A stretch of DNA of 58,974 nucleotides. Source: Muribaculaceae bacterium. Its GTDB lineage: Bacteria > Bacteroidota > Bacteroidia > Bacteroidales > Muribaculaceae. The DNA lies in NCBI GenBank assembly GCA_017557665.1, contig JAFYYI010000052.1:1-58974 (forward strand), written 5' to 3'. The notes beneath the pieces are model-generated. The model had not been told where the DNA came from. It saw only the letters and a list, made by a program, of their open reading frames with translations, and did not search any database. This document shows, piece after piece, positions 194 to 58,735 of the stretch (position 1 is the stretch's first letter; each line of letters starts with the position of its first letter). Position numbers and translations under genes: made by a program.

Positions 194-1294
194 TTACTTG
201 GTGGCGAGGTTGCGTGCGTAGTCTTCCCACTTGGTGATGAGGGCTGCCATGTCGGGGGGCAGCTCGCTGTCGAAGTCCATCTGCTGGCCTGTCTCAGGAT
301 GAACGAAACCCAGCGTCTTGGCGTGCAGGGCTTGGCGTGGACATAGTTCAAAGCAGTTGTGGATGAACTGGGCGTAACTGGAAGAGCGGTTGCCGCGCAG
401 AATCTGGTCACCTCCATAGCGTGCATCGTTGAACAGCGGATGCCCGATGTGCTTCATGTGGACGCGAATCTGATGGGTACGACCCGTCTCCAGTTGGCAT
501 TGAACTACCGCCACGTGGGCGAGGTTCTCAACGGTGTGCCAGTGAGTGACGGCATGTTTGCCCTGGTCGCCGTCAGGAAAGACTTTCATCAGTACGCGGT
601 CGCGTGGGTCTCGTCCGATGTTACCCGTCACGGTACCGTCTAGCTCTTTCATCTCGCCCCACACCACGGCGATGTATTGGCGCTTGGTGGTCTTCTTGAA
701 GAACTGGGCGCCGAGCGAGGTCTTAGCATTGGGCGTCTTAGCGATGACAAGCAGACCGCTGGTGTCCTTGTCGATGCGGTGCACGAGACCTAGACGTGGG
801 TCGGTCACGTCATAGTCGGGGTTGTCCTTGAAATGCCAGGCGAGGGCGTTGACAAGCGTGCCGTCGAAGTTGCCGTGGCCGGGGTGAACGACCATGCCGG
901 CCGGTTTGTTGACCACCATCAGACTGGCGTCCTCATAAACGATGTTCAACGGGATGTCCTGGGCGACGATTTCGCATTCATAGCGCGGGCGGTCCATGAC
1001 GACGCTGATTTCGTCGCCAGGGTGCACGCGGTAGTTGCTCTTGACGGGGCGTCCGTTCACGCGGATGCATCCGGCCTCGGCAGCGTTCTGCACGCGGTTG
1101 CGGCTGGTGCCCTTGATGCGCTCCACCAGATATTTGTCGATGCGCAGCAACACCTGTCCCGGCTCCACCACATAGTGGTAGTGCTCCCAGTAGTCTCGCC
1201 CGTCTTCGGTGAAGTCGGGCTCACTATAGTCATATTGAATCTCGTGACCGCCCGATTCCAGTTCGGCATCAAGCAGTTCGTCGTCCAGCGCCAT
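194..1294 (-). CDS. rluD: RluD-family 23S rRNA pseudouridine synthase
   Basis: This cytoplasmic enzyme isomerises uridine to pseudouridine in large-subunit rRNA. The 366-residue protein has an acidic N-terminal extension of about 45 residues, an S4 RNA-binding domain at about 48-100, and the pseudouridine synthase core. The catalytic motif HRIDKDTSG is at 172-180, with Asp175 as the expected nucleophile. The RTHQIRVH motif typical of the RluA/C/D group follows. It starts 10 bases after the stop of the PASTA gene, so the two are co-transcribed, an order familiar in Bacteroidales. The exact target uridines cannot be read from sequence; RluD is preferred over RluC because of the extension and the neighbour. 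Confidence 0.93.
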   Translation of the reverse strand: MALDDELLDAELESGGHEIQYDYSEPDFTEDGRDYWEHYHYVVEPGQVLLRIDKYLVERIKGTSRNRVQNAAEAGCIRVNGRPVKSNYRVHPGDEISVVMDRPRYECEIVAQDIPLNIVYEDASLMVVNKPAGMVVHPGHGNFDGTLVNALAWHFKDNPDYDVTDPRLGLVHRIDKDTSGLLVIAKTPNAKTSLGAQFFKKTTKRQYIAVVWGEMKELDGTVTGNIGRDPRDRVLMKVFPDGDQGKHAVTHWHTVENLAHVAVVQCQLETGRTHQIRVHMKHIGHPLFNDARYGGDQILRGNRSSSYAQFIHNCFELCPRQALHAKTLGFVHPETGQQMDFDSELPPDMAALITKWEDYARNLATK

Positions 1295-1304
1295 GTCAGA
1301 TCAG

Positions 1305-2093
1305 TTATTTCTTCTTGTCCTTTTCCGACTTCTTATCTTTCTCCTTGTCCTTATTGTCGCGCTTTTCTTGGGCAGCCTGATTCTTGCGCTCCTGTTCGGC
1401 ACGCTCACGGGCAGCCTTTAACTCTTCCTCATAGTTCTTTTGGGCATCCTGATAGTTGGCCTCTTCAATCGAGTCCATCATCTCAGGATCCAATACTTGC
1501 TCGGGATCGAGGTCCACGATGGAGCCGTCACCCACGATAATCTTGATCTGGCTGTTAACGCTCACACCGGTGTTCGGGGCTACGTTGCGGCCGTCGACTG
1601 TCACTTGAAGGATCAGACCGGCCATCTCACTTGGTATGCTGTCAATGTCCACATGCTTGTAGCCCATCGCCTTGAGCATTGCGGCACCTTGTCGACCAGG
1701 CAGGTCAACCAGTTTAGGCAACGGGATGATGGGAGCGTGCATCGCGTTTACGTTCAAGTAGATGATACGGATCTTTTTGATATAGGATTTGGCCTTGGGG
1801 TCCTGATCGATGACCGTGCCGGGTTTATAGTTTTCATAGAATGTGGTCGAGTCGCTGATGTCCCAACGCAGGCCGGCATCCTCAAGAATTTCAATCGCTT
1901 TTTCGAGAGGCATATTGCGCACGTCAGGCACTTGCACCTGCTGCCCGTGTGAAGTGAAGACATCAATAAACAGCAGGGCGATATAGCCCAGAGCCACCAA
2001 TGCCAGCACCATCAGGGTGGAGTTTACCAGGATGGGGTGGCGGTCACGAAAGCGGTCAAACCCGCGTTTATTATTCTCAGTATTATTGCTCAC
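1305..2093 (-). CDS. PASTA-domain single-pass membrane protein
   Basis: The 262-residue protein has a short cytoplasmic N-terminus, one transmembrane helix at about 21-44, and two PASTA-like repeats at about 52-116 and 122-188 (VPDVRNMPLEKAIEILEDAG, then LPKLVDLPGRQGAAMLKAMG). The tail from about 215 is highly charged and Lys/Glu-rich, probably coiled-coil or disordered. PASTA domains bind peptidoglycan stem peptides or beta-lactams in penicillin-binding proteins and Ser/Thr kinases, but no catalytic domain is fused here. A structural or scaffolding role at the periplasmic face is therefore inferred. It is the first gene of the operon with rluD, and its own promoter lies upstream. Confidence 0.88.
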   Translation of the reverse strand: MSNNTENNKRGFDRFRDRHPILVNSTLMVLALVALGYIALLFIDVFTSHGQQVQVPDVRNMPLEKAIEILEDAGLRWDISDSTTFYENYKPGTVIDQDPKAKSYIKKIRIIYLNVNAMHAPIIPLPKLVDLPGRQGAAMLKAMGYKHVDIDSIPSEMAGLILQVTVDGRNVAPNTGVSVNSQIKIIVGDGSIVDLDPEQVLDPEMMDSIEEANYQDAQKNYEEELKAARERAEQERKNQAAQEKRDNKDKEKDKKSEKDKKK

Positions 2094-2121
2094 GGTCGTT
2101 CAATAGTTTAGTTACAATTTG

Positions 2122-2129
2122 CAAAGATA
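2122..2129 (-). promoter_or_regulatory. Bacteroidetes -7 box for the PASTA-rluD operon
   Basis: The minus strand reads TATCTTTG, with a TTTG at 2149-2152 about 19 bases further upstream. This matches the Bacteroidetes primary sigma consensus (TTTG, then TAnnTTTG). It is divergent from the promoter at 2191. Confidence 0.65.
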
Positions 2130-2190
2130 GTGTTTTTCGGTGGCTAAACAAACATGCCACACCGTTTTTTTTCAGATTTCAAAAAAATGT

Positions 2191-2198
2191 TATCTTTG
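2191..2198 (+). promoter_or_regulatory. Bacteroidetes -7 box for the gene at 2208
   Basis: TATCTTTG lies only 10 bases before the ATG at 2208. The transcript should therefore be nearly leaderless, which argues for the start at 2208 rather than the in-frame ATG at 2154. Confidence 0.6.
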
Positions 2199-2207
2199 CA
2201 AGTAATT

Positions 2208-2654
2208 ATGGAGAAAGATTATAACGAAAACGTTGAACGGCTGCTTGAAGCGCCTTATTGGGTAATTGACTTCCTGCCGATGCAGGTGCCACAGGACAGC
2301 GAGGGACAATTCTTTGCCGTGGAGCAGTACTATCTGCAAGAGCCGCAGCATGAACGCTTGTGTAACCAGTTTGCCGACGTGCTGCTGAAATTGAATTGCT
2401 ACTACGACCTGCTTGTGAGCCGCGATGGTGGTGATGAATGGCTCTTTCCTGATCCAAGGATGCTTGTCAAGTGGCTGACGGAAAGTATGCAAAACGGCCA
2501 CCTGTGCGTCTTGATTGACGATGGAGACTCACTGATTACCGCCAGCGGCGGCGACCTCTGCCTGACGCTTTACAACCCGTCGCCAGCCCTGCTGCAACTT
2601 GTTGGCCAACTGGCCTCCGCTGCCGGACTCTACCTCTGGCAACCAGGGGGATAA
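2208..2654 (+). CDS. Conserved-looking hypothetical cytoplasmic protein
   Basis: I do not recognise this 148-residue protein. It begins MEKDYNENVERLL and is soluble and acidic, with no signal peptide or membrane segment. Hydrophobic and aromatic clusters (APYWVIDFLPMQVP near the start, a VEQYYLQEPQHERLCNQF segment) suggest a compact alpha/beta fold. An in-frame ATG 54 bases upstream (2154) is rejected because the -7 promoter box lies downstream of it. The gene stands alone, divergent from the PASTA-rluD operon and followed by 156 bases without a gene. Confidence 0.75.
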   Translation: MEKDYNENVERLLEAPYWVIDFLPMQVPQDSEGQFFAVEQYYLQEPQHERLCNQFADVLLKLNCYYDLLVSRDGGDEWLFPDPRMLVKWLTESMQNGHLCVLIDDGDSLITASGGDLCLTLYNPSPALLQLVGQLASAAGLYLWQPGG

Positions 2655-2810
2655 ACTGTTTATGTCAAAAAGAGAGGAATGCCAGTGAAACCTGAAACTT
2701 GGTGATTGGACAGAATCAGGGCTTCAGTTTTTGTAGACAACTATAAACCAATAAATTAAAAATTGAGAAATTTTTCGCAAACCTTTAACCATTAACCTTT
2801 AAACTATACA

Positions 2811-3914
2811 ATGGATCGTTCTTCACAGATTATCAGGACCAGTTGGATTGGCATCATCGCTAACGTGCTGCTGGCCGCTTTCAAGGCCATTGTGGGCCTA
2901 CTGGCCAGTTCGGTAGCCATCGTGATGGATGCAGTAAACAACCTGAGCGACGCGCTCTCGAGCGTCATCACCATCGTGGGCACTAAACTGTCGCAGCGGC
3001 CAGCCGACAGGAAACACCCCTTCGGGTTCGGGCGCATCGAGTATTTCAGTGCCATCATCATCGCGGTAATTGTGCTCACGGCCGGCGTGACCTCGCTCAT
3101 TGAATCCATCAAAAAGATCATTGAGCCGACCACACCCACTTACACTACCGTCACACTCATTGTCATCATTGTGGCCATCATCGTGAAACTGGTGCTCGGC
3201 CGATATGTCAAGTCACAGGGCGAGAAACTCAAGAGTGACGCACTGATTGCCTCGGGTTCAGATGCCCTGTTTGATGCCATCATCACGCTGGCAACGCTCA
3301 TTTCGGCAGGTGTGATGCTGCTGTGGCATGTTTCGCTCGACGGCATCCTGGGAGCCCTCATCTCGCTGGTCATCATCAAGGCCGGTATCGAGATGCTCGC
3401 TTCTCCCATCAACGAACTGCTTGGTGCCAAGATTTCGCCCGAACTGTTGTCGCAAATCAAGCGAGAGGTCGGCGAACATGAAGAGGTGCACGGCGTGTTT
3501 GACATTATCCTGCACAACTACGGTCCCGATGTGCAGATCGGGTCGCTCCACATCAATGTCCTCGACACGATGAATGCTCACGAGATTCACGGCCTCACAC
3601 GGCGCATCACTGAGGAGATGTTTGACCGGCACGGCATCATTATGACCGTCGGCGTGTATGCTGTCGCCACTGGCGATAACAAGCGCGCAGAATTGCAGCA
3701 AACCGTTATGCAGGCTTTGGCCTCTCATGAGCATATCACCCAAGTTCATGGCTTCTACTATTTCGAGGACGAGAAACGTGTATCGGTCGATATTGTTCCT
3801 GACCTCACCATCCATGACGATGCCGCCTTCATCCAAGAGCTGAAAGCCGAGGTGCAGCCCCTTGTGCCCGATGCCCAAATCACCATCGTCATCGACCACA
3901 ACTACAGCGAGTAG
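2811..3914 (+). CDS. Cation diffusion facilitator (CDF) family metal exporter
   Basis: This inner-membrane divalent cation/proton antiporter has 367 residues. It has about five to six hydrophobic helices in the first 215 residues and a C-terminal ferredoxin-like cytoplasmic domain carrying HINVLDTMNAHEIH and HGIIMTVGVY. The HPFGFGRIEYF motif after helix 2 is diagnostic. The helix-2 metal-site position reads D40-x3-N44 rather than the D-x3-D of E. coli FieF. The helix-5 position has A148 and D152 (with D156) rather than H-x3-D. The substrate may therefore not be that of FieF (zinc/iron); manganese-type CDFs also vary at these positions. It is monocistronic as far as can be seen. Confidence 0.92.
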   Translation: MDRSSQIIRTSWIGIIANVLLAAFKAIVGLLASSVAIVMDAVNNLSDALSSVITIVGTKLSQRPADRKHPFGFGRIEYFSAIIIAVIVLTAGVTSLIESIKKIIEPTTPTYTTVTLIVIIVAIIVKLVLGRYVKSQGEKLKSDALIASGSDALFDAIITLATLISAGVMLLWHVSLDGILGALISLVIIKAGIEMLASPINELLGAKISPELLSQIKREVGEHEEVHGVFDIILHNYGPDVQIGSLHINVLDTMNAHEIHGLTRRITEEMFDRHGIIMTVGVYAVATGDNKRAELQQTVMQALASHEHITQVHGFYYFEDEKRVSVDIVPDLTIHDDAAFIQELKAEVQPLVPDAQITIVIDHNYSE

Positions 3915-12024: not shown

Positions 12025-12099
12025 AAATACGTAGTTAAAAGGGTACTATACTTCAAGAAAATACAGCAAAAACCATGCCAATGGTTTGATGCTTTAGAA

Positions 12100-12131
12100 G
12101 ATTGCACGGGAACCGTAATGGCCCGTGCAAT
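12100..12131 (-). terminator. Terminator hairpin of the displaced dcuB 3' end
   Basis: GATTGCACGGG pairs with CCCGTGCAATC over 11 bp. It is homologous to the hairpin at 13952-13984 that follows intact dcuB, so the duplication extends beyond the coding end. Confidence 0.75.
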
Positions 12132-12193
12132 CAGTTATCATGTTAGATGAATTATTCTAATCTTTCATCGCTAATCTCTAATCGGCAAAGTTT

Positions 12194-12360
12194 TTAGATC
12201 CAGCCCATTGAGTGGTAGAGGAAGGCGATGAGGTAGCCGGCGATGCAGGCGACGATGGTGTGTACCAGACCGGGCATCATGAAGGAGTGATTCAGCAGGT
12301 ACTTGCCGATGACCGTGGTGCCCGTTCGGTCGAAGTTCACCGTGGCGATATCCGAGGGAT
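12194..12360 (-). pseudogene. Truncated dcuB: duplicated last 55 codons
   Basis: These 167 bases align end to end with 14005-14171, the 3' end of intact dcuB, with three substitutions and no gaps. One substitution is the synonymous ATC for ATT before the stop. The fragment begins abruptly at 12360, has no start codon, and runs through the stop at 12194 to its own copy of the terminator. It is best read as the original 3' end of the resident gene, displaced when the 12361-13950 cargo arrived. No insertion sequence or integrase gene adjoins it. Confidence 0.93.
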
Positions 12361-12396
12361 TATTACTCTAATAATGAAGTAAAATGTAGTTGTTTT

Positions 12397-13005
12397 TTAT
12401 GAGTTATCAGTAATCTGACTATTCTCGGAATCGTTATTCTTAACATTCTGAATGATTTCTGATAATATTTTTTTTGATGACTCTTCTGTCGCTTCTTTTA
12501 CTTTACCTTTTCCCATTTCCTGAGTATAGACCATGCGATTGGTGCTAAATACAGATTTTATTATAGCCTTAACAGGTTTAAAGAAAACCAAAATGATTAC
12601 AATTATAGCAATCAAATAGAATATGGTAAATTTGTTAAGCCAATCATGTGAATTAGAAAAGATTTTAGTCCAATTATATACAAGATAGATTGCAAGTAGT
12701 CCAATAATGTATTTAAATATGCTCCAATAGTGAATATTATATGTCTTATACTGTGTGTCAGATGGATTCATAACAACTTCAGTATCTGTTTTTTTTGATT
12801 TCGTGCTAGTGTTGGAGTCTCTTGAGTCAATACGTTGTCTATAAGATAATCCTGTGCCAGGTATACCGATATTAAGAAATGTGCCTCTTTTACCAACACT
12901 TATACTTGCTCCTCTTTTACCAAAAGAAGTGCTAATGCCGGTTTTCCCGATATATAGCCTAATTCCAGGTGCAACTTTTTTTGATTTACGATATCTCAGT
13001 CCCAT
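12397..13005 (-). CDS. DUF4236-domain membrane protein in AT-rich insert
   Basis: The 202-residue protein opens with the glycine-rich DUF4236 domain (about 1-55). Its pattern is repeated short beta strands (GLRYRKSKK, IGKTGISTSFGKRGASISVG, GTFLNIGIPGTGLSYR). A polar linker follows, then two hydrophobic helices at about 92-140. DUF4236 is common in phage-related and mobile DNA but has no assigned function. Base composition is far more AT-rich than the flanking genes and the codon use differs, signs of transfer. It shares the insert with the divergent ion channel gene, and its TATTTTTG box is at 13033-13040 on the minus strand. Confidence 0.82.
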   Translation of the reverse strand: MGLRYRKSKKVAPGIRLYIGKTGISTSFGKRGASISVGKRGTFLNIGIPGTGLSYRQRIDSRDSNTSTKSKKTDTEVVMNPSDTQYKTYNIHYWSIFKYIIGLLAIYLVYNWTKIFSNSHDWLNKFTIFYLIAIIVIILVFFKPVKAIIKSVFSTNRMVYTQEMGKGKVKEATEESSKKILSEIIQNVKNNDSENSQITDNS

Positions 13006-13126
13006 TTGAGTCAGTCAATATTTGTTGTACTGCAAAAATACAAATGTTTTATAGTTAGGGCAAATGAACTCACAGGTTTTCTGTTTTTTAAGTCATGATT
13101 TTATATGTTTGTTGTCTTAATTTGAT

Positions 13127-13134
13127 TAACTTTG
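13127..13134 (+). promoter_or_regulatory. -7 box for the channel gene
   Basis: TAACTTTG with TTTG at 13108-13111 upstream. The ATG follows at 13158, 23 bases later. Confidence 0.6.
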
Positions 13135-13157
13135 CATAATGAAGAAATGATAGAACC

Positions 13158-13928
13158 ATGACGATACGAGACAAGATAAGAGAAATAGTAGAGCCGAGGA
13201 ATGAGAATAGAGTTTCTCATTTTTACGATTATATAATGCTGATAGCGATAGTTATTGGTATAATTCCCTTAATGTTTAGGGAACAAAATAAATTGTTCTG
13301 GTATTTTGATATAATTTCTGTAATTTGTTTTATAGTTGATTACATACTGCGCTGGTTAACAGCGGATTATAATTCAAGGTATAAAGGGGTTATCCCTTAT
13401 GTTGTTTATCCTTTTACACCTATGGCAATAATTGATTTGCTTTCAATTTTGCCTGGATTCAATTTACTTAATCCAACGTTTAAAGTTGCCCGTATATCTC
13501 GTATGCTGAAAATCGTAAGAGTTTTCAAAATTATCAGATATTATGAGCCATTAGAGATAGTCATAACCGTTATAAAGAAACAATCTAAGTTTTTAATGAC
13601 AGTGCTGTCATTAGCGATTCTTTATATATTTGTAACTGCATTAATAATGTTTAATGCTGAAACGGGAATCAACCCAGAAACTGGACAACGCCTTTTTAGC
13701 GATTTTTTTGATGCTTTTTACTGGGCGGCATGTACTCTAACAACAGTAGGCTACGGTGATTTCTATCCTGTATCAGATTTGGGGCGTCTTATTAGTATAA
13801 TATCATCAATTGTTGGAATAGCCATCATTGCCTTGCCCTCTGGTATTGTTACGGCAGGTTATATCGAGGAGCTAAACTCACGGAAAAAACCTTACCTAAA
13901 TGATAAGAATGGAATAAATGATAAATAG
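13158..13928 (+). CDS. Voltage-gated K+ channel-like ion transporter
   Basis: The 256-residue inner-membrane protein has a voltage-sensor-like region (S1-S4, about 20-130) whose S4 carries regularly spaced positive residues (KVARISRMLKIVRVFKIIR). The pore domain contains the selectivity filter TLTTVGYGDFYPVSD and a closing inner helix (IVGIAIIALPSGIVTAGY). It should pass K+ across the inner membrane. The gene is strikingly AT-rich against its neighbours and lies inside the insert bounded by dcuB 3' ends. K+ channels of this type occur on many mobile segments. A role in defence or stress is possible, but no sequence evidence decides it. Confidence 0.9.
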   Translation: MTIRDKIREIVEPRNENRVSHFYDYIMLIAIVIGIIPLMFREQNKLFWYFDIISVICFIVDYILRWLTADYNSRYKGVIPYVVYPFTPMAIIDLLSILPGFNLLNPTFKVARISRMLKIVRVFKIIRYYEPLEIVITVIKKQSKFLMTVLSLAILYIFVTALIMFNAETGINPETGQRLFSDFFDAFYWAACTLTTVGYGDFYPVSDLGRLISIISSIVGIAIIALPSGIVTAGYIEELNSRKKPYLNDKNGINDK

Positions 13929-13951
13929 GGATATTGTAATTCTCATAATAA

Positions 13952-13984
13952 GATTGCACGGTCCTCATGTGGGGCCGTGCAATC
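13952..13984 (-). terminator. Terminator hairpin of intact dcuB
   Basis: GATTGCACGG pairs with CCGTGCAATC, with a GGCC-rich inner stem. It lies 20 bases after the dcuB stop codon on the minus strand and is homologous to 12100-12131. Confidence 0.75.
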
Positions 13985-14004
13985 TTTATGTATGGATTAT
14001 TCTT

Positions 14005-15468
14005 TTAAATCCAGCCCATTGAGTGGTAGAGGAAGGCGATGAGGTAGCCGGCGATGCAGGCGACGATGGTGTGTACCAGACCGGGCATCATGAAGGAGTG
14101 GTTCAGCAGGTACTTGCCGATGACCGTGGTGCCAGTTCGGTCGAAGTTCACCGTGGCGATATCCGAGGGATAGTTGGGGATGAAGAAGTAGCCATAGACC
14201 GAGGGCAACACACCCAGCAGAATCCAGCCGTCGATACCCAGCTTGTAGGCCAGCGGCAACATGGCAACGACTACTGCGCCCTGGGAGTTGACGAGAACCG
14301 ATACCAGGAAGAAGGCAAAGGCAATCGACCACGGGTACTGTTCAACCAGGCCGGCTAGCATGTCTTGGATTTCGCCCAGGTAGTTGGCAAAGTAAGTGTC
14401 GGCAAGCCATGCGATGCCGTAGATGGCAACAACGGCTACCATACCGCTCTGCCAAACGGGGCCGGCGATGGCCTTTTTGGGCTTCGCCTTGCAGAAGATA
14501 ATCATCAGCGCCGCAGCAGTAATCATCACAATCTGGATGACGAGGTTCATCTTCAAGGGGGTAGGATGTGTCTTGGTCAATCCGTCAACGGCGATGCCCA
14601 ATTTGGCGAGTTGGTCGGCGGTGATGGTCACGCGCGAACCGATGAGTTCGACGGTAGCGTCACCGTCAATGGCCTTGATGGTGTCATAGGAGGGCAGCAG
14701 ATTCTGGAAGATGGCGAAGAACACGATGACCAGCAGGGCGCCAAAGAAGATATAAACGGCACGCTTGCTCTCGGGAGCAATCTTCTTGTCGAGGGTGGTA
14801 GCGGTGCTGCCGTAGATATACTCGCGCTGGGCGGGATCGGCAATCTTCTTCTGGAACTCGGGATCCTTGTCCAGGTCCTTGCCGCGCTTGTAGGAGGCGG
14901 CAGAGGCAATCAAGATACCCAGTAAGCAGGCGGGAATGGTCACCATGAGCACCTTGGGGATGGTGATATCGTAGCCGTTAGCGCCGCTGATGGTGATGAA
15001 CGCCACAACTGCAGCAGCGATGGGCGAGCAGGTGATACCGATCTGTGACGCGATGCTGGCGATACCGCAGGGACGCTCAGGACGGATGCCCTTCTTGATG
15101 GCGATGTCGCAGATGATGGGCATCAAGGTGTAAACCACGTGGCCCGTGCCGACGAGCACCGTCAGGAAGAACGTGCACAGCGGGGCCAGGAAAGTGATGC
15201 GGTCGGGATGCTTGCGCAGCATCTTCTCGGCCAACTGGATGAGCCAATCCATACCGCCCGATGCCTGCATGATACCGGCGCAGGTGACTGCAGCAATGAT
15301 GATGTAAATCACATCGGTGGGCGGGGTTCCGGGCTTCATGCCGAAGCCAAACACGAGAATGGCCAAGCCGATGCCTGAGATGGCACCCAGGGCCAGGCTA
15401 CCGTATCGCGAGCCGAGCCACAACGCGCCCAGCACGATACAGAGTTGAATGATCATGATTAGTGTCAT
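14005..15468 (-). CDS. dcuB: Anaerobic C4-dicarboxylate transporter, DcuA/DcuB family
   Basis: DcuA/B carriers exchange fumarate, malate or aspartate for succinate across the inner membrane during anaerobic growth. The 487-residue protein follows E. coli DcuB throughout: the N-terminal ALWLGSRYGSLALGAISGIG, AGIMQASGGMDWLIQLAEK, TVLVGTGHVVYTLMPIICD, RPERPCGIASIASQIGITCS and RGKDLDKDPEFQKKI. It is about 40 residues longer than DcuB, owing to a polar insert of about residues 245-300 (DGDATVELIGSRVTI). It lies 120 bases downstream of a porin gene, which probably supplies outer-membrane passage. The last 55 codons are duplicated at 12194-12360. Confidence 0.92.
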   Translation of the reverse strand: MTLIMIIQLCIVLGALWLGSRYGSLALGAISGIGLAILVFGFGMKPGTPPTDVIYIIIAAVTCAGIMQASGGMDWLIQLAEKMLRKHPDRITFLAPLCTFFLTVLVGTGHVVYTLMPIICDIAIKKGIRPERPCGIASIASQIGITCSPIAAAVVAFITISGANGYDITIPKVLMVTIPACLLGILIASAASYKRGKDLDKDPEFQKKIADPAQREYIYGSTATTLDKKIAPESKRAVYIFFGALLVIVFFAIFQNLLPSYDTIKAIDGDATVELIGSRVTITADQLAKLGIAVDGLTKTHPTPLKMNLVIQIVMITAAALMIIFCKAKPKKAIAGPVWQSGMVAVVAIYGIAWLADTYFANYLGEIQDMLAGLVEQYPWSIAFAFFLVSVLVNSQGAVVVAMLPLAYKLGIDGWILLGVLPSVYGYFFIPNYPSDIATVNFDRTGTTVIGKYLLNHSFMMPGLVHTIVACIAGYLIAFLYHSMGWI

Positions 15469-49112: not shown

Positions 49113-49202
49113 TGGCAATCGGGTGTTCGAGCAGGAACTGTAAAGGAAGTGATTAAAGAAACCAACATAATACCGAAAACTCGTTCAAATCCCGCCCCCC
49201 TC

Positions 49203-49422
49203 TCTAACCCCTAAAGTCTAACATCTGAAGTCTAACGTCTAACATCTGAAGTCTAACGTCTAACATCTGAAGTCTAAAGTCTAACATCTGAAGTCTAACG
49301 TCTAACATCTGAAGTCTAACGTCTAACATCTAATATCTAAAGTCTAATATCTAAAGTCTAAAGTCTAACATCTAACATCTGAAGTCTAATGTCTAAAGTC
49401 TAATACCTAACATCTGAAGTCT
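49203..49422. repeat. Right arm: long GTCTAAC/ATCTGAA array
   Basis: About 28 units of 7-8 bases (GTCTAAC, ATCTGAA, GTCTAAA, ATCTAAT) repeat in varying order, with higher-order blocks of TCTAACGTCTAACATCTGAA (20 bases) several times. The text has no open frame and sits between dprA and the phosphorylase gene. Confidence 0.9.
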
Positions 49423-49532
49423 CAAAACCATTTCACCTTTTTTAACACCTCGCCTTATTGAAAAATAAGAGAAAAGCAGTAATTTTACATTTTCATTTTT
49501 AATAAAAATTGAACTTTTAATTACACAACGAT

Positions 49533-53920: not shown

Positions 53921-53940
53921 CCCTGAGTGTTGTCTAAAGT

Positions 53941-53998
53941 ATTACGGGCTGTCAGCCCGTAATGAAAGAAGGCCGCAGCTATTGCCGCAGCCTTCTTG
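53941..53998. repeat. REP-like double-hairpin module, copy 1
   Basis: Palindrome ATTACGGGCTGTCAGCCCGT (plus AAT) is followed by GAAAGAA and a second hairpin (AAGGCcGCAG...CCGCAGCCTT). It is found 3' of the minus-strand gene at 54016. The same plan recurs at 55667 and 58677. The second hairpin can serve as that gene's terminator. Confidence 0.8.
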
Positions 53999-55576: not shown

Positions 55577-55666
55577 CTAACCACCTGTTATTTAATTAGT
55601 TGCGAGACAATCCTGCGATCGCGGCTTTTTTATCCCATAACCACTTTCGGTAGGCGTTGTCACGGT

Positions 55667-55723
55667 ATTACGGGCTGCCAGCCCGTAATGAAAGAGAGGG
55701 CCGCAACAATTGCCGCGGCCCTC
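55667..55723. repeat. REP-like double-hairpin module, copy 2
   Basis: ATTACGGGCTGCCAGCCCGT (plus AAT) palindrome, then GAAAGA and the hairpin GAGGGCCGC...GCGGCCCTC. Located 50 bases 3' of corA on the minus strand. Confidence 0.85.
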
Positions 55724-58548: not shown

Positions 58549-58676
58549 AAGAAAAACAAACACAGTGACAACCATCTGGCAGCTATTTTTTCGCACCTGA
58601 CTCAATAGGTCTCATCCCCAGCGCCCAAGTCTGTGCCGTCGATAGCCCCAGCCCCCCATGCCCGTGCCGTCAATGT

Positions 58677-58735
58677 ATTGCGAGCTATCAGCTCGTAAAA
58701 AAACGAGGGCCGTGGCACTACTGCCACAGCCCTCG
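58677..58735. repeat. REP-like double-hairpin module, copy 3
   Basis: ATTGCGAGCTATCAGCTCGT palindrome, a short A-run, then the hairpin CGAGGGCCGTGGC...GCCACAGCCCTCG. The base pairs are kept while the sequence differs from copies 1 and 2 (compensatory changes). Located 3' of the isocitrate dehydrogenase gene. Confidence 0.75.

Follow-up and report, generated by a model that had tools for sequence, protein, structure and literature searches.

Layout of the dcuB locus

We analysed a stretch of 58,974 nucleotides from a Muribaculaceae bacterium (contig JAFYYI010000052.1 of assembly GCA_017557665.1, positions 1 to 58,974; hereafter the window), in which the 3' end of the gene dcuB is present twice, as a 169-nt direct repeat (12192-12360 and 14003-14171) with three substitutions, at -130, -97 and -4 relative to the stop codon's end, and no gaps. 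The insert between the copies, 12361-14002, spans 1,642 bp at 32.4% G+C, compared with 50.7% for the window and 57.2% for dcuB, and its only two open reading frames (ORFs) of at least 80 aa, 12397-13005 on the reverse strand and 13158-13928 on the forward strand, encode a DUF4236 protein and a K+-channel-like protein; neither is a recombinase or integrase according to Pfam. The initial annotation had read the AT-rich insert, its cargo, the lack of a recombinase and the gapless repeat with three substitutions as we do, and gave the repeat length as 167 nt. Following the direction of dcuB transcription, the features are:

14005..15468, reverse strand: dcuB, the intact target gene, 487 aa (PF03605, E 7.4e-136; 97% amino acid identity to its nearest relatives)
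14003..14171, reverse strand: resident copy of the repeated dcuB 3' end, 169 nt with 3 mismatches to 12192-12360
13929..14002, reverse strand: resident flank with a dcuB-type terminator hairpin at 13953-13983, different from the old flank
13158..13928, forward strand: cargo gene for a K+-channel-like protein, 256 aa (PF00520, E 2.9e-27; PF07885, E 2.6e-15)
12397..13005, reverse strand: cargo gene for a DUF4236 protein, 202 aa (PF14020, E 2.1e-20)
12361..12396, no strand: far end of the cargo, with the non-homologous joint at 12360/12361, where the repeat identity stops
12192..12360, reverse strand: old dcuB 3' end beyond the cargo, identified by the repeat match
12025..12191, reverse strand: old native flank with a dcuB-type terminator hairpin at 12101-12131, matching the flank of the empty site in a relative (locus L010)

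The channel contains a TVGYG motif, which we take to be the filter, and a basic stretch that is presumably S4-like. Hairpins of the form ATTGCACGG..CCGTGCAAT stand 3' of each repeat copy (12101-12131 and 13953-13983), and this pattern has no other site in the whole window, where 100 shuffles gave an expectation of none. The proposal that the two hairpins are homologous holds for their position and common stem, but their loops and surroundings differ (74% identity over 35 nt), which indicates that the resident flank is related to the old flank rather than copied from it. The resident terminator belongs to the family seen behind dcuB in relatives, yet is unlike the window's own old terminator. 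Members of this hairpin family occur in 20 of 203 loci; going by coordinates, all are no more than about 110 nt from a dcuB end or remnant, with the sole exception of one site behind the cargo of locus L136, where the repeat covers the terminator region only. ARAGORN, used to check for tRNA-linked integration, found zero tRNA genes in the window.

The empty site and the hotspot behind dcuB

The nearest relatives of this dcuB come from metagenome-assembled genomes labelled Bacteroidales, Prevotellaceae or Muribaculaceae, several of them ruminant, with amino acid identities of up to 97%. Our genus sample comprised the 101 genomes of the GTDB genus of genome G015, 61 of which were matched by the dcuB 3' end; 56 loci from 55 of these (six of the 61 genomes being left out) were surveyed together with the window, giving 57 loci, 53 of them with at least 2 kb downstream. 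As the initial annotation had anticipated for a related empty site, L010 joins dcuB directly to the left flank: downstream of its dcuB stop codon comes DNA that in part resembles window 12025-12193 (88.6% over 79 nt, 83.6% over 61 nt), after which L010 carries a counterpart of the window's 160-aa gene, 98% identical in amino acids. The window segment 10452-12024, with the DUF169, DUF6440 and 160-aa genes, is 92-96% identical to L010, whereas the dcuB, porin and esterase genes are only 84-87% identical, which points to recent exchange and to recombination of segments at the dcuB locus between species. The stretch from dcuB to the DUF169 gene measures 340-420 bp in five loci (L008, L017, L125, L133 and L134) and holds different genes at others.

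A repeated dcuB end was found in three of the 53 loci with sufficient downstream sequence, namely the window, L015 and L138. The cargo of L015 is an AAA_14/DUF4143 ATPase, and its 81-nt repeat (95% identity) extends into the terminator. L138 has two similar 340-aa genes in tandem (847-3056), one of them identified as an FGE-sulfatase (sulfatase-modifying-factor) plus dockerin protein, with an eroded dcuB end after each. G013 has a dcuB end behind HipA- and HTH-like genes on a different contig (L115, C107) from its dcuB, so that linkage is not shown. At L115 6674-6762 a piece from deep inside dcuB is joined to the gene's final 48 nt, which shows decay to an internally deleted remnant. Separately, G097 has full-length dcuB on two contigs of the same assembly (L116 and L117), which may be a real duplication or a mixed bin.

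The same cargo pair behind icd

The initial annotation had also suggested looking for the same cargo behind other genes. In G003 genes for the channel (62-64% amino acid identity) and the DUF4236 protein (32-36%) do lie behind icd, a gene that we named from its sequence, and 116 nt of the icd end recur past the pair at 97% identity (L150). DUF4236 matches occur in five of the 101 genus genomes, and the pair is adjacent in G003, G009 and G082, with differing gene orders and places. Channel homologs (E 1e-40) were detected in 43 of 397 genomes of the family sample, in varied contexts across the 23 loci viewed.

A second copy of the icd end downstream on the same contig is present in four of the 77 genus genomes matched (G003, G097, G063 and, with only 26 nt, G072), a count that leaves out G043, G076 and G094, whose second matches are on other contigs. 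The cargo differs from case to case: the channel and DUF4236 genes in G003; a HipA_2-like kinase with a 113-aa protein, plus a 147-aa protein, in G097; a Fic protein in G063; and, as judged from ORF starts, probable two-component genes in G072, whose cargo is shared with G001 at 84%. We viewed 21 icd loci, a selection that includes these four. The resident icd hairpin is of type A in 14 of the 21, some with other genes behind, and of type B in six (G003, G097, G072, G001, G006 and G004); in G003 and G097 a type B resident hairpin is combined with a type A hairpin at the remnant, and the two hairpins of G063 are unlike each other and unlike both types. G097 and G006 have icd, hairpin and HipA-like genes in common (82.9% over 2.1 kb), but G006 lacks the additional gene, the remnant and the following ATPase that G097 carries.

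As a separate observation, a palindromic repeat, GTATTACGGGCTGNCAGCCCGTAATGAAAGA, occurs three times in the window (53939-53969, 55665-55695 and 58675-58705), and similar palindromes lie 3' of icd in several relatives.

Footprints at further genes

Comparing 460 kb of G089 with itself, and likewise 340 kb of G036 and the window, yielded three additional footprints. The first is at a cupin-like gene (80 nt, 100%), the second at 251 kb in G089, where 43 nt (100%) of a putative methyltransferase-like gene are repeated around a DUF4143 ATPase cargo, and the third is a mirror case in G036, in which 111 nt (90%) of a gene's 5' end are repeated upstream of the cargo. The survey used a longest-ORF picker in place of a gene caller, and set aside repeats inside ORF pairs and intergenic-intergenic pairs as well as the sites at 6.6 kb (low complexity), 172.8 kb (an overlapping-repeat cluster) and 201.8 kb of G089 and at 90.3, 147.4 and 335.7 kb of G036. 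A further footprint of 203 nt (92%) is found in L014. Among 57 genus genomes, the methyltransferase-like end is repeated in G089 and perhaps in G011, where two same-strand matches about 1 kb apart (G011:C22 26372-26456 and 27504-27662) are a possible case or a paralog. The 5' mirror was seen in two of 91 genus genomes (G036:C10 106663-108196 and G017:C3 45993-47618); since the two stretches are about 83% alike, it reads as old and vertically inherited. The footprint is thus real and recurrent within one genus of gut Bacteroidales.

One cupin cassette in two backgrounds

The cupin end is repeated in five of the 45 genus genomes matched (G089, G008, G087, G003 and G001), in one of them across two overlapping contigs. 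G089 and G008 have the same 3.5-kb cargo behind the cupin gene, encoding a Na/Ca-exchanger, a CitMHS-type protein and two small proteins, with 98-100% identity in 200-bp windows from about 100 bp in. The inner ends of the two cassettes agree to the base, and the cupin-end copy then starts at the same point. Past the remnant, by contrast, G089 resembles G002 (82.8% over 944 nt) and G008 resembles G006 (91.5% over 2,345 nt); between the two species there is a 3-5% difference in the gene-end copies, and agreement of only about 76% (61 of 80 positions) in the stretch with the resident terminator. The two copies in G089 are identical (80/80 nt). Its terminator at the intact cupin gene is of the kind found in G006, G036, G066 and G088, and the one beyond the remnant is like that of G002. 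With a foreign terminator beside the gene and the native one behind the 80-nt copy, this copy apparently served as a homology arm in G089. Other homology was not found on that side, which would place the second exchange within the 80-nt copy and the first within the cupin gene or at its end. In G008, where the resident copy spans the 18-nt overlap of two contigs (C33/C93) and is not assembled through, the copies differ at two cargo-proximal sites only, which fits an exchange inside the arm or later mutation.

G003 and G001 have another cupin cargo with a 27-28-nt remnant, and here too the resident terminator is unlike that of the remnant; as their region is 92.8% co-linear, it may be a single inherited insertion. 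The cupin repeat of G087 takes in flank. The occurrence of one cassette in two backgrounds links the duplicated gene end to homologous recombination, and strengthens the homologous-recombination reading offered by the initial annotation.

Proposed formation and spread

Based on these observations we propose, at a probability of roughly 60%, that the window contains a cargo cassette lodged in a hotspot behind a conserved gene, between two copies of that gene's 3' end, and that such cassettes are integrase-free and enter by homologous recombination. The comparisons behind this proposal are the duplicated gene end, the empty site, the varied and recurring cargo, the unlike terminators and the one cassette in two backgrounds. 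The donor DNA would have run from inside dcuB through a terminator into the cargo and integrated by homologous recombination in dcuB, and its other end would have been attached at -167 of dcuB by a non-homologous joint, whether directly or by way of a trimmed, self-ligated circle integrating through one crossover. The resident gene would thereby be kept whole and gain an additional terminator and the cargo, and the old gene end with its native terminator would be displaced beyond the cargo and then decay. In subsequent spread, as suggested by the cupin cassette and assumed for dcuB, the second gene-end copy would act as the right homology arm, so that possession of the target gene would be enough for a genome to receive a cassette, irrespective of the downstream DNA, and the cassette would require no recombinase of its own. 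Recombination between the repeats would yield a circle and tandem copies, and L138 may show such tandem copies. More tentatively, one might see the duplicated gene ends as attachment sites used by RecA, with tiny integrase-free cassettes leaving as circles, entering any genome that has the same gene, and taking cargo, defence-like or other, from one species of gut Bacteroidales to another; we regard this wider picture as a possibility rather than an expectation.

Several observations weigh against the proposal. The repeat is present at only three of 53 dcuB loci, though many hold other genes there, so that the majority of variable dcuB loci lack it, and in L001 and L002 an ATPase region about 71% identical to that of L015 lies directly behind dcuB with no repeat. 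The window's two copies are 98.2% alike, while other dcuB ends that we examined reach at most 94.0%; either, therefore, the donor was a close relative outside our sample, or the two copies are both host sequence. In G089, both cupin copies have one and the same sequence, which is also that of G002, so that no plain single crossover with a G008-type circle can be discerned, and that route is not supported in this simple form. The idea that the cargo brought its own gene end needs refinement: the cargo and, in G089, a foreign terminator have travelled, but in this best-resolved sister case the copies are close to the host's own. Finally, Ku was found in none of the 101 genus genomes, with Bacillus subtilis as a positive control; canonical end joining was accordingly rejected, and the non-homologous joint needs another route. 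Neither a circular form nor a transfer event was observed.

The near-identity of the copies in the window, and their identity in G089 at the cupin gene (80/80 nt) and at 251 kb (43 nt), would also be expected of insertion with long target duplication, in which a dedicated, hitherto unseen insertion activity duplicates the host's own gene end as the cargo enters. That the G008 repeat takes in about 70 nt of host flank and that repeat length differs from locus to locus likewise favour it. However, plain target duplication fails to explain why the resident terminator is unlike that of the remnant in the window, at icd in G003 and G097, and at the cupin gene in G089, G003 and G001, or why G089 and G008 have the same joint; we know of no enzyme for such insertion, and consider this explanation unlikely. 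Lower still we rank a tandem duplication that took in dcuB and its downstream DNA, with one copy later losing most of its length, which would make the far copy a worn-down gene and not an arm. The C107 remnant of G013, joining a deep dcuB piece to the last 48 nt, shows that one such copy was once longer, and L138 has two similar gene units; but the G013 remnant and dcuB are on different contigs, and this reading leaves unexplained how one cargo came to lie in two backgrounds, why the pair recurs behind icd and why the window's repeat is a sharp 98%.

The initial annotation had kept open a site-specific element that restores gene 3' ends with an integrase supplied elsewhere. Islands in gene 3' ends usually have the intact gene beside the cargo and the old end beyond it, which is the layout of the window. 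Nevertheless, the gene-end copies start at varying points (-167, -37, about -50, -102, about -106, about -59, -80, -49, -28 and -39), and no common core is evident by eye at the dcuB, icd and cupin joints, where no motif search was run; this variation counts against a trans-acting integrase. Moreover, G036 and G017 have a mirror case at a gene's 5' end and the cargo has no integrase, and we consider such an element very improbable. An assembly artefact is scarcely credible: the window may be a metagenome contig, and such repeats can break contigs, as where C33 and C93 of G008 meet over 18 nt, but separate genomes, most of them assembled through, show the same layout with different cargo and spacing, and the window's copies differ in sequence and in flanks.

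Relationship to known systems

We compared the footprint with described systems. Many accessory-gene hotspots lack an evident mobility enzyme. In the minimal mobile element of Neisseria, exchange proceeds by homology in both flanking conserved genes, so that different genes come to lie between the same conserved neighbours, and the dcuB-DUF169 interval varies in this way at some loci. Such an element, as generally defined, has no duplicated gene end and uses both flanking genes as arms, unlike the cassettes here, where the downstream neighbour differs between G089 and G008; minimal mobile elements are mentioned in PMC1538595. An integrase gene and a constant crossover core characterise integrase-type islands in gene 3' ends, and neither is seen here, the core being judged by eye.

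The closest resemblance is to insertion with long target duplication in Helicobacter pylori, which often involves restriction-modification genes (Nobusato et al. 2000, as cited in excerpts of PMC1643837, PMC3031569, PMC4978471 and PMC3154945). There, as those excerpts describe it, long direct repeats of the target, variable in length, flank an insert and are single in another genome, with no transposase needed. Here, the window repeat is single at the L010 empty site, and repeats of 169, 81, 116, 80, 43 and 111 nt are found in separate loci. The cargo is not of the restriction-modification type, which is typical there but not strictly so, and the cases differ further in that gene ends are duplicated here, the resident terminators are unlike those of the remnants, and the same joint occurs in two backgrounds. 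The footprint is best placed as a variant of a kind that is already known and poorly explained.

The shape of the product has a laboratory precedent in Escherichia coli conjugation, where a polymerase chain reaction (PCR) product for the duplication is reported for 56 of 60 clones, and a duplicated lacZ end of 109-950 bp for the 14 sequenced; the authors took these products as a single crossover of a trimmed, recircularised molecule, and four were like homology-facilitated illegitimate recombination (HFIR) (PMC3240628). As in our cassettes, a gene 3' end enters with non-homologous DNA and leaves a partial repeat of the gene end, but a laboratory plasmid was used there, whereas the cassettes here are natural and shared between species. 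HFIR likewise combines homology on one side with a non-homologous joint on the other (excerpts of PMC3240628 and PMC5361080), and its displacement of T6SS effectors leaves old 3' ends downstream (PMC5361080). Recipient DNA is generally lost in HFIR, whereas here it is duplicated and both the old gene end and the native flank are kept. Microhomology of 3-10 bp at the joint and dependence on RecA are further marks of HFIR. Transposed genes of Arabidopsis are flanked by direct repeats of the target site, and circle excision with reinsertion by homology has been proposed for them (PMC2869330, excerpt); host target-site repeats thus surround moved genes in both cases, but those are plant genes within one genome, and ours move between bacterial species. 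Papers on pneumococcal merodiploids (PMC3784515) and on small variable segments (PMC2884548) belong to the related literature. No description of the footprint in Bacteroidales was found among the literature matches listed, in a search that covered little of the subscription literature.

Cargo and implications

Among the cargo proteins of the window and the other cassettes that were run against Pfam there is no recombinase, and Pfam and PADLOC revealed no restriction-modification system among them. The channel and DUF4236 proteins of the window and G003 were tried as a known defence system and had no PADLOC match at E 0.01. An origin in phage or plasmid DNA was also considered and rejected, with the channel detected in five phage records (E 1e-10) and six plasmid records (E 1e-20); DUF4236 was detected in 19 phage records, none with a place covering 80%, in a search of phage records. 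DUF4236 is mentioned in one paper on Salmonella lineages. Proteins of other cassettes match PADLOC candidate models, namely the DUF4143 ATPase of L015 (E 1.3e-58), the Fic protein (E 1.8e-110) and the HipA-like kinase (E 5.1e-12), and it is from these that we guess that the channel and DUF4236 pair may act in stress or defence.

The footprint, the empty site, the cargo pair behind two genes and the two-background cassette all come from one genus, which makes portability by a duplicated gene end testable. If true, the proposal suggests that genes flanked by such duplicated ends can spread through ordinary recombination and need no enzyme of their own. It also offers a simple way to search for cassettes of this type, among whose cargo are candidate defence or toxin-antitoxin-like genes. 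Elsewhere in the window, positions 49161-49460 hold an array of overlapping 21-nt direct repeats.

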